Shown here one piece after another: positions 32,689-45,099 of a DNA stretch of 53,707 nucleotides (position 1 is the first letter of the stretch; each line of letters starts with the position of its first letter). The DNA is taken from positions 1 through 53,707 of the forward strand of contig JAUSJX010000086.1 of NCBI GenBank assembly GCA_030647435.1, given 5' to 3'. The stretch is from Candidatus Rokuibacteriota bacterium (GTDB lineage: Bacteria > Methylomirabilota > Methylomirabilia > Rokubacteriales > CSP1-6). The notes beneath the pieces are model-generated. The model was not told the DNA's origin, ran no database searches, and saw only the letters and a program-made list of their open reading frames with translations. Both the position numbers and the translations under genes were made by a program.

Positions 32689-33405
32689 ATGGCGAGAGCC
32701 GCCAAAACCCGCACCTACACGCTCAGACGGGCTTCCTCGGTCGTCTTCGCGCTGATCTCCGTCCTGCCGCTGCTCCTCTTCGCCTACACGCTCTACGCCC
32801 TCGACGTGCTTCACCACAACGTCGCCCAGATCGGCCTGGGCTCGGCGCTGGTCCTCTCCATGATCGGCTTCTACATCTACTCGGTCATGATGTCGCGGCT
32901 GTCCGACATCCTCCGCGACCTCGAGGCCGACGAGTCAGCGCAGCCGCCCTCAGGTGCGACCCACGGCGCGACCCAGGGCCCGGTCGTCACGATGGCCGTC
33001 GAGCCCGGTCCGAGCGGGCCGATGGCGGAAAGCCACACGGCCGGCGCATCGCGCCAGGTCCCCGCGCCGCCCTCGGGGCGGCCCAGTCCCTTCGCAGTCA
33101 GGGGGCGCTCAGGCGCCGGCGGCCGCGGCGGGCTTGTCGTTCCCGGCATGGGTCGCATCACCGAGCTCAAGCCGGCGGCCGCGAGCGCGTTGTCGGATTT
33201 GGACTCCATGTGGAGGGCCGAGGCCGAGCCGCTCCTCGGCAAGCGCGTCCTGGTGGCCGTGCGCAACGCGCCTGATCCCATGAAGGGCATCCTGGCCCAG
33301 GTCACGCAGGACGGCCTTATCCTCGACCAGAACGGCACCAGGGTCGGCATCAGCTACGCGCGGGTGTCGGCCATAGAAGCGGACACGACCCCCGACCCGG
33401 CCTAG
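32689..33405 (+). CDS. Hypothetical two-TM protein with a C-terminal Sm-like segment (238 aa)
   Basis: Two hydrophobic segments (about 18-38 and 47-66) with a cytoplasmic-looking linker rich in Pro/Gly/Ala (80-150). The C-terminal 60 residues (LLGKRVLVAVRNAPDPMKGILAQVTQDGLILDQNGTRVGISYARVSAIE region) resemble an Sm/RimP-like small beta-barrel. No family is recognised. The TAG stop lies in the CTAG target of the MITE that follows, and would have overlapped the stop of the convergent ChaN-like gene before the insertion. Confidence 0.65.
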   Translation: MARAAKTRTYTLRRASSVVFALISVLPLLLFAYTLYALDVLHHNVAQIGLGSALVLSMIGFYIYSVMMSRLSDILRDLEADESAQPPSGATHGATQGPVVTMAVEPGPSGPMAESHTAGASRQVPAPPSGRPSPFAVRGRSGAGGRGGLVVPGMGRITELKPAAASALSDLDSMWRAEAEPLLGKRVLVAVRNAPDPMKGILAQVTQDGLILDQNGTRVGISYARVSAIEADTTPDPA

Positions 33406-33545
33406 GAGCGTGTCGGAATAATGGGTTTCGACGGTATGCAACAGAACATGCGATCGCACATTTGGCTCAGGTTCGAAGATCTCGGCCTCGCTAATGCGTT
33501 TCGATCCCGTCGAAATCGAAGTCGGGTCATTTCTCCGACACGCTC
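33406..33545. mobile_element. 140-bp MITE with CTAG target duplication
   Basis: Terminal inverted repeats begin GGAGCGTGTCGGA on both ends (33406-33418 and complement 33545-33533), 17 of 19 outer bases matching. The element is flanked by CTAG at 33402-33405 and 33546-33549, fitting a 4-bp target duplication of IS5-type (YTAR) specificity. It is too short for a transposase. A stop-free minus-strand frame with EIFEPEPNVRSHVLLHTVE could be a relic of a parent element, or chance. Confidence 0.75.
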
Positions 33546-34421
33546 CTAGCGGTTTCTGAGCGGCGCGCAGGGGTCGGGACGCTCGACGGGAGGCCTTGGC
33601 CAGACGATGTGGCTGCCCGGCGCTGGCCGTCCCGCCTCGTCTGACCCAGCCTCGACAAAGTCCACGATCAGCTGTCGGGTACCGGATCGCAGCGCGTCGA
33701 CCTGATCGGCAAGCCCCCCCGGCGCCTGATGCCCTCGCCCGACGATGACCACCACCTGCGGCGCCCGCTCGAGAGCCTGGAGGATCCGCCGCGCCATGGT
33801 GACGTTGCGCGCGTGCCAGGCGTCCACCATGCCGGGCACCGCGCCCGCCGGCAGGAGGCCGCAGTGGGCGGCCTCGATGTCGCGCGCGATGCCCCGCTCG
33901 CGATCGGCTTCCGGAGCCAGGCGCGAGACGAGCCGGCTTCGCTCGTCGGCGGGCAGGGCGCCCAGCCCTTCCTTGGCGATGCGGTGCACCGTCTGCTGGT
34001 CCAGGTCGATCGCGACGACCGGCAGGCCGTAGCGCCTTGCCTGGTCGAAGAGCGGCCGGTACATCTCGAAGTCGGGCCAGCGGCGGTCAACCCACCCAAG
34101 ACGCTTTCCGGCCGCGGCCGGGTCGGCGCCGTCGCGCAACGCCTCGTCCGCCGCGGGCTGCTGGTCCTGGGCCAGCATCTCGAAGGCGAGGGCCGGCCGC
34201 GCGCCTCCGGCCAGCATGGCCTCGAGCACGCGCGCCTGGTCCATGTGGTGGTAGGGGTTGTCGTGGGATTCGCCGAGATAGACGATCTGGACGTCCCGCG
34301 CCCGGGCCGCGATACGGCGCGCCACAGCAGCGGGATCGTCGTCGAGCGATGGCGCCGCCGCGGCGCAACCCGCCATGGCGAGCGCGGCAGCGATGCGCCG
34401 GGCAGCCGAAGCCCGGATCAC
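33546..34421 (-). CDS. ChaN/Tiki-superfamily lipoprotein (291 aa)
   Basis: Signal with lipobox MAGC (Cys19) and then the ChaN (PF04187-type) domain: IVYLGESHDNPYHH (47-59), ALAFEMLAQDQQ and VVIVGRGHQ. ChaN of Campylobacter binds haem; the Tiki/TraB fold uses the GE...H residues for metal binding or proteolysis, so either role is open. GTG 34421 overlaps the VOC gene stop as GTGA. Last gene of a four-gene coupled operon. Its TAG stop is preserved by the CTAG duplication of the adjacent MITE. Confidence 0.8.
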   Translation of the reverse strand: MIRASAARRIAAALAMAGCAAAAPSLDDDPAAVARRIAARARDVQIVYLGESHDNPYHHMDQARVLEAMLAGGARPALAFEMLAQDQQPAADEALRDGADPAAAGKRLGWVDRRWPDFEMYRPLFDQARRYGLPVVAIDLDQQTVHRIAKEGLGALPADERSRLVSRLAPEADRERGIARDIEAAHCGLLPAGAVPGMVDAWHARNVTMARRILQALERAPQVVVIVGRGHQAPGGLADQVDALRSGTRQLIVDFVEAGSDEAGRPAPGSHIVWPRPPVERPDPCAPLRNR

Positions 34422-35206
34422 CCGAAGCTGAGCCGGGCGCCGTGGGTGAGGTGCGGATCGAGCGCGGCGCCAGGCGGGCCCCCGGTGAAGCGCGCGGCGT
34501 AGGTCCCGGGCCCGCGCGAATCGACCCACTGGCCGATCGGCCCGCGTTCGGTTCTGGGCTGCCCGCGTTCGGTTCTGGGCTGAAGGAATTCCAGCGCGTG
34601 CGGGCCAATCGCGAAGCGCACACCGTCGGCGTCGAGGTTGTCGCGGTGGAGCGCCTCGCCCGGGCGCCCCAGCACCGCCTCGTACCAGTCTCTCGCCTCG
34701 CCCACGCTCGGCACGGCCACCGTCACCGCCGAGAGACCCGTGACGCCGTTAGCATGTCGGCTCTCGGGCGGCACGCGCTCGGCCCGCGGCCCGTCATCTC
34801 GGATGAGAAATGGCGCGACTCCGCGCTGCGGCCCTTCCGCGAGCGCCAGCACCCACCTGACAGCAAAGCCGTCGGGGCGCGTGCGCACCGAGGGTTTCGG
34901 ATCCGTCATCGCTACCCCGGCGCGTCGGAAGGCCCCAGTGTCGGCGGCGAGGTCGTCGGTCTGCAGGCAGTAGTCCACGAGCCCGCCGCCGCGCCCGAGC
35001 GCCGTCCACCAGCGGTGCTCAGGGTACGGCTCGTGGAAGGCGATCAGCTCGATGTAGGCGCCGTCGGCGAGCGCGATGAGCGCATTGTGGGTGCCGGCGG
35101 CGTGGCGACCGCCCGGCACGACGGAAAAGCCGAGCGCCGCATAGTCGCGCATCGCCGCCGCGAGATCGCCGACGGCGATGACGAAATGGTCCACGCCGAG
35201 GAGCAT
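34418..35206 (-). CDS. VOC/glyoxalase-like domain protein (262 aa)
   Basis: Starts MLLGVDHFVIAVGDLAAAM, the standard opening of vicinal-oxygen-chelate proteins in the 'glyoxalase-like' group, with a second betaalpha module after TGLSAVTVAVPSVGEARDWYEAVLG. ATG 35206 joins the TPR stop as TGATG. Near residues 208-221 a seven-residue unit (QPRTERG) is duplicated by an exact 21-bp repeat at 34541-34582, evidently recent. Enzymatic activity is unknown; metal ligands are not obvious in the first module beyond His8. Confidence 0.78.
   Translation of the reverse strand: MLLGVDHFVIAVGDLAAAMRDYAALGFSVVPGGRHAAGTHNALIALADGAYIELIAFHEPYPEHRWWTALGRGGGLVDYCLQTDDLAADTGAFRRAGVAMTDPKPSVRTRPDGFAVRWVLALAEGPQRGVAPFLIRDDGPRAERVPPESRHANGVTGLSAVTVAVPSVGEARDWYEAVLGRPGEALHRDNLDADGVRFAIGPHALEFLQPRTERGQPRTERGPIGQWVDSRGPGTYAARFTGGPPGAALDPHLTHGARLSFG
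34541..34582 (-). repeat. Exact 21-bp tandem duplication inside the VOC gene
   Basis: Two identical units, 34541-34561 and 34562-34582, add seven residues (QPRTERG twice) without breaking frame. Perfect identity implies a recent slip. Confidence 0.9.
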
Positions 35207-43915: not shown

Positions 43916-45099
43916 ATGGCGAGCGCGGACGTAGTCATCATCGGCGGAGGCGTCAACGGCGCCAGTCTCGCCTTCAGCCTGGCGAGTCTCGGCGTCAGGC
44001 GCGTCACGGTCGTCGAGCGGCGCCACCTGGCCGCCGGCGCCACCGGGAAATCGGGCTCGCTCGTCCGGATGCACTACACCAACGAGGTCGAGTCCCGCCT
44101 CGCATGGGAGAGCCACAGGGTCTTTCGCGATTTCGCCAACGTCGTGGGCGGGGACTGCGGCTTCGACGCCACGGGCTTCGTCCAGATCGTCGGCGCCGCC
44201 CACGCGGGCGACCTGGCTGCCAACGTGGCCATGCAGCAGCGGATCGGCATCGACACGCGTCTGGTGTGTCGAGAAGCGAGCTGAGCGTGATCTCTCCCGA
44301 CCTTCGCGTGGACGACATCGGCGCCGCCGCCTACGAGCCCGGCTCGGGCTTCGCCGATCCCAACACCACCACGTTTGCCTTCGCCGAGGCCGCGCGGCGG
44401 CTCGGCGCCACCATCGAGACGGGCTCTGAGGCGCTCCGCATCGTCACCGAAGGCGGCCGCGTCGCCGGAGTGGAGACGAGCCGGGGCAGGATCGCCGCGC
44501 CTGTCGTCGTCGCGGTACCGGGGGCCTGGGCCGGGCGCCTCCTCGAGCCTCTCGGGCTCGACTTCGGCCTCACGCCCTATCGCATCCAGGTCTCGATCTT
44601 CCGCTGGCCCGACGGCTTCACACGCCGCCACCCAGTGGTCATCGACGCCATGCACCGCGCCTGGATGCGCCCCGAGGGGCGCGGGTGCACCCTCATCGGG
44701 GTCGAGCTGGGCTCGGGGCACGCGGATCCGGAGAAGTAAGACGAGGGCGTGGACCCGAGCTACGTGGCGCTCTGCCGCGAGCGGCTCGCCGGGCGCTTCC
44801 CGGCCTTCGACCGCTCGACCATGCGCGGCGGCTGGGCGGGCATGATCATGATGAGCCCCGACGGCCGCCCGATCATCGACCAGATCCCCTCGGTGCCGGG
44901 CCTGTGGGTCATGCTCGGCGACTCCGGCACTTCCTTTAAGACGGCGCCGGCCATCGGCCGCTGTCTCGCCGAGTGGATCGTCAAGGGCAAACCCGAGACC
45001 GCGGACCTCTCCCGCTTCCGCTCCACGCGCTTCGCCGAGGGAGCCCTCTGGGTCGACCCGACCGGCTACGGCATCGAGCGGCTGACCATCTCGCGCTAG
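43916..45099 (+). pseudogene. FAD-dependent oxidoreductase (sarcosine-oxidase-like/DAO family), frameshifted and with a nonsense codon
   Basis: The product would have the FAD-binding VVIIGGGVNGASLAFSLA, an ATGKSGSLVRMHYTNE segment of DAO-family enzymes, RVAGVETSRG, and C-terminal GGWAGMIMMSPDGRPIIDQIP...LWVMLGDSGTSFKTAPA. It is broken twice. A GTGTGT run (44264-44269) has an apparent extra TG that shifts the frame after ...GIDTRLV, and codon TAA 44737-44739 interrupts ...DPEK*DEGVDPSYV where relatives have Tyr. The span is 394 codons plus 2 nt, as expected. The 3' end overlaps alkA's stop in a shared CTAG. Confidence 0.82.

Follow-up and report, generated by a model that had tools for sequence, protein, structure and literature searches.

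How a mobile element can come to lie between two convergent genes without damaging the stop codon of either, and whether such a site is chosen as a target, are the questions raised by a short insertion in a 53,707-nucleotide stretch of a Candidatus Rokuibacteriota genome (contig JAUSJX010000086.1, referred to here as the window). They have been addressed by comparing the window and further contigs of its source genome (G000, hereafter the own genome; C67 and C168 among its contigs) with a set of 57 genomes of the family.

The element and its insertion site

At positions 33402-33549 the window reads CTAG, 140 bp and CTAG again, with perfect terminal inverted repeats. The left CTAG (33402-33405) supplies the TAG stop of a plus-strand gene (32689-33405) whose 3' end is ...CCG GCC TAG, and the right CTAG (33546-33549) contains the stop, also read as TAG, of a minus-strand gene (33546-34529). 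The former encodes a 238-aa protein that is kept across the genus, has two TM stretches according to the preliminary description of this DNA, and gave no match in Pfam or NCBIfam. The latter, with a putative start codon, encodes a protein of the ChaN / Cofac_haem_bdg family (Pfam PF04187, E=5e-45). Reading of the gene ends corroborates the earlier proposal that both genes keep their stops, and the unoccupied convergent CTAG stop overlap to which the locus had been likened is indeed present in the same window at 45096-45099.

The body of the element (33406-33545) is gene-free and 140 bp long, or 142 bp with a TA duplication. It folds into a hairpin of nearly its whole length (-65.1 kcal/mol, z -6.3), which might serve as a terminator; no Rfam match was obtained at the element. 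Its left terminal inverted repeat, GGAGCGTGTCGGA, lies on the plus strand at 33405-33417 and has its first G in common with the CTAG, and the right repeat, the reverse complement of the left one, lies on the minus strand at 33534-33546. The position of the boundaries depends on how the duplication is read. A 4-bp CTAG duplication leaves 12-bp inverted repeats (GAGCGTGTCGGA) and an element at 33406-33545, whereas 13-bp repeats (GGAG...) extend the element to 33405-33546 and reduce the duplication to the TA inside CTAG. Perfect 13-bp repeats and 4-bp CTAG flanks had been described side by side; together they count one base per side twice. A full-length IS in genome G092 (L258), with the borders ATA/GGAG...CTCC/TAG, fits the TA duplication better, although one base change would equally account for that arrangement.

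Related genomes provide the empty site. Removal of the element and one CTAG from the window yields GGCCTAGCGGTTTCT, and exactly this sequence is carried by a sister species of the same genus (G024, L091), in which the stops of both genes fall on a single CTAG (...GACCCCCGACCCGGCCTAGCGGTTTCTAAGCGG...). The ChaN protein is 91% identical between the two genomes and the other gene about 88%. Once the element and one CTAG are removed, the window and G024 can be aligned across 1490 bp (93% identity) without a gap at the junction, whereas the alignment of the intact window splits in two at that point. Neither the MITE nor its ends were found anywhere in the G024 genome. G022, a further species of the genus, also has the gene pair without the element, and there the first gene ends in TGA. 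The empty site in G024 and the element-free pair in G022 indicate that the element most likely arrived in the lineage of the own genome, by insertion into a CTAG that served as a shared stop, as the preliminary description had supposed.

Copies of the element and autonomous partners

The ends of the element recur across the family. The 16-mer CTAGGAGCGTGTCGGA has 23 matches in 14 of the 57 genomes and the reversed control pattern has none in any of them, so the end pattern is not a product of chance. Further copies of the MITE lie at unrelated loci, one of them full-length on contig C67 of the own genome (79% identity) and others in G025 (79%) and G048 (71%), and a 161-bp subfamily occurs in G030, G053 and G054. 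Full-length IS elements that have these ends and are likewise flanked by CTAG were found in G055, G028, G014, G027, G020 and contig C168 of the own genome. In G028, G020 and other genomes their ends conform to GGAGCSTGTCGGAGAAA, and those in C168 and G055 are near-identical. The IS of G055 is 1.71 kb long, and the transposases of G055 and G028 belong to the IS1182 family, with 350 and 342 bits against an NCBIfam IS1182 cut-off of 270; the protein on C168 is 77% identical to the G055 transposase. Because the MITE and the IS elements resemble each other only over about 20 terminal bases, their interiors being unrelated, the identity of the IS that mobilises the element is putative. Judged from its sequence, the element is a MITE, as originally proposed, given that it is short, bears terminal inverted repeats and lacks a transposase gene, that it shows a target duplication (read as CTAG or TA) with an empty site in G024, that it has several copies at unrelated loci (C67, G025, G048), and that it has its ends in common with an autonomous partner.

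A contig scan for both ends with 104-134 bp between them returned only two contigs, both from Synergistaceae (MAG loci L120 and L121). They carry a MITE of 160 bp whose 13-bp ends are identical to those of the window element and whose interior is AT-rich; one copy is bordered by CTAG, the other by CCAG. This interior is unrelated to that of the window element, and the two contigs were excluded from the counts.

CTAG as target and the question of shared stops

Within the phylum, 44 of 45 IS or MITE ends adjoin CTAG and the remaining one ATAG. Some of these loci had first been picked with a pattern containing CTAG; later patterns were free of it, and CTAG was again found adjoining the ends. The genomic background of the word was established in a 454-kb sample of the own genome (L192-L211 and the window), where composition predicts 1310 CTAGs and 148 are present, a depletion of about nine-fold. 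With element borders excluded, the 142 CTAGs of the own genome comprise 6 convergent overlaps, 43 single stops, 43 in-gene and 50 intergenic occurrences, and the 201 CTAGs at the loci of relatives comprise 1, 71, 58 and 71, respectively. About a third of the remaining CTAGs are stop codons, and convergent shared stops make up 0.5-4%. Genes were called with a simple codon-usage caller and the numbers are small (16 sites, 40 ends).

The 16 insertion sites consist of 1 convergent overlap, 6 single stops, 3 positions inside called reading frames and 6 intergenic ones, or of 2 overlaps and 5 single stops if a site in G027, scored by the automated caller as a single stop, is reassigned; either way, most insertions lie at single-stop or intergenic CTAGs. 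At the G027 site a full 1.55-kb IS separates LigA (Pfam 7e-10), which ends in the left CTAG, from a partial conserved gene, a 44-codon open frame at the contig edge that ends in the right CTAG. This frame is probably a real gene, because a relative of its peptide, 55% identical, is present in G003. G027 probably holds a second shared-stop insertion, here of a full IS. The corresponding empty site was not found through LigA homologues.

The proposal that shared-stop overlaps are a chosen target, and a general niche for CTAG-targeting elements, finds only partial support in that form, since the insertion sites match the CTAG background. In the tabulation of overlaps, these account for 1-2 of 16 insertion sites compared with 6/142 and 1/201 of background CTAGs, all of them small numbers. 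That convergent shared-stop CTAGs are nevertheless a preferred niche, in which insertions survive or are targeted more than elsewhere, we consider unlikely. The window element and the probable second case in G027 speak in its favour, as does the comparison of 2/16 with the pooled background of 7/343 (p=0.056); against the own genome alone (6/142), however, the same count gives p=0.19, the automated caller recognises only one such site in 16, and stop ends overall are not significantly more frequent at insertions (11/40) than among background CTAG strands (64/296; p=0.42). Two shared-stop cases in 16 are therefore suggestive at most. Genes as such are very strongly avoided, only 3/16 insertions lying inside them although 91% of the sample is coding (p about 1e-11). 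This avoidance follows from where CTAG itself lies, and the in-gene share of insertions does not differ significantly from that of background CTAGs (43/142; p=0.40). On this sequence evidence, shared-stop insertions are better seen as following from CTAG targeting than as a demonstrated preference, because the target is CTAG, a word that is rare in these genomes and clustered at gene ends. A more ambitious notion, which we regard as possible but doubtful, is that CTAG targeting amounts to built-in safe-site selection. As CTAG is purged from coding sequence and kept at stops and between genes, a 4-bp word would avoid genes nearly as well as a dedicated system, and convergent overlaps would be the best niche, the duplication regenerating both stops.

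Some further repeats were considered as shared-stop insertions and rejected. They consist of one IS1182-type end followed by two GC-rich hairpins, belong to a different, order-wide repeat, in many cases do not adjoin CTAG, and were excluded from the statistics. This two-hairpin repeat (GAGCGCGGGCTTCGCCCGCGC ... TCGGAGGGGGCCGTCGAGGCCCCCTCCGA) is very abundant (L150-L179 and L212-L229, in G047, G051, G052 and others) and follows stop codons closely on their downstream side, in many cases at 4-5 bases from a TAG; the excess of TAG is biased because the loci were picked with a query ending in CTAG. Of 46 loci, 18 are convergent and 2 divergent, whereas the 369 gene pairs of the own genome include 57 convergent and 55 divergent ones; the repeat looks like a putative bidirectional terminator that is mobile or repeatedly copied. 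Those at L042, L046, L047, L055, L153 and L159 start with CTAGGAGCGTGTCGGAGTAA, as if a single IS1182-type end had been joined to a hairpin repeat. Separately, three IS1182 or MITE insertions (the right side of the C67 copy, L083; L230; L231) adjoin the same sequence, CACAGTAGTACTAG. In G020 this sequence adjoins an IS701-family transposase gene, and the CTAG bordering IS701 therefore seems to have been reused as a target.

Proposed mobilisation and relation to known systems

Taken together, these observations make it very probable that the element is a non-autonomous MITE moved in trans by a CTAG-targeting DDE transposase of the IS1182 family, and that the shared stop was hit through its CTAG and not through recognition of the overlap. 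The transposase would recognise the roughly 13-20 bp of end sequence common to the MITE and the full-length IS, and would join the MITE to CTAG with duplication of 4 bp (or of TA within CTAG). Here the target was the 4-bp stop overlap of two convergent genes. It would have been hit simply as a CTAG, the few copies of that word in this genome being mostly located at gene ends or between them. The duplication gave each gene a complete stop of its own, because the word is palindromic and reads TAG on both strands; no residue was lost from either protein, and the insertion would presumably be neutral. Mobilisation by another CTAG-using family, of IS701 or IS5 type, is very improbable. An IS701 element does occur in G020, its end sequence adjoins the three nested insertions, and a CTAG-targeting MITE of IS5 type is known (PMC3189936); however, the ends of the MITE are identical to IS1182-family ends over 13 or more bp, and CACAGTAGTA, which borders the IS701 element, is unrelated to them. 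Hardly credible is an ancestral spacer, for example a bidirectional terminator, precisely deleted in G024: the strong hairpin and the position between convergent genes would suit it, but homologous copies at unrelated loci in the own and other genomes largely refute it, G022 also lacks the 140-bp stretch, and the ends match those of autonomous IS elements.

With its empty site identified, the locus is a clean illustration that a target word of very few bases can direct a transposon away from genes. Thirteen of 16 sites lie outside called frames although about 91% of the sampled genome is coding sequence; the scarcity of CTAG and its placement explain this without extra machinery. As this case warns, insertions at stop codons should be compared with a background matched for the target word before targeting is claimed. 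No paper on MITEs in the overlapping stops of convergent genes turned up in the literature collection searched.

Three known systems bear comparison. The IS701 family targets 4-bp YTAR. In the relative G020 it is bordered by CTAG, and the three nested cases have the same border, but its ends are unrelated to those of the element and its transposase is of a different family. IS1272 represents the IS1182 family (PMC5678879), with the same transposase family (NF033551), a length of 1.5-1.8 kb and short terminal inverted repeats; some members have been reported to target palindromes. IS1272 replaces inverted-repeat targets without duplication, whereas the elements described here have CTAG on both sides. 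A further parallel is MITEPsy1 of Pseudomonas syringae, a 100-bp MITE for which, in the accessible part of PMC3189936, no occurrence at shared stops is mentioned. It resembles the window element in its short inverted repeats and in a duplicated target of 4 bp (CTAG or YTAA), but MITEPsy1 has different ends and is tied to the IS5-family ISPsy2. CTAG-duplicating MITEs were thus already known, and it is the MITE itself that is new.
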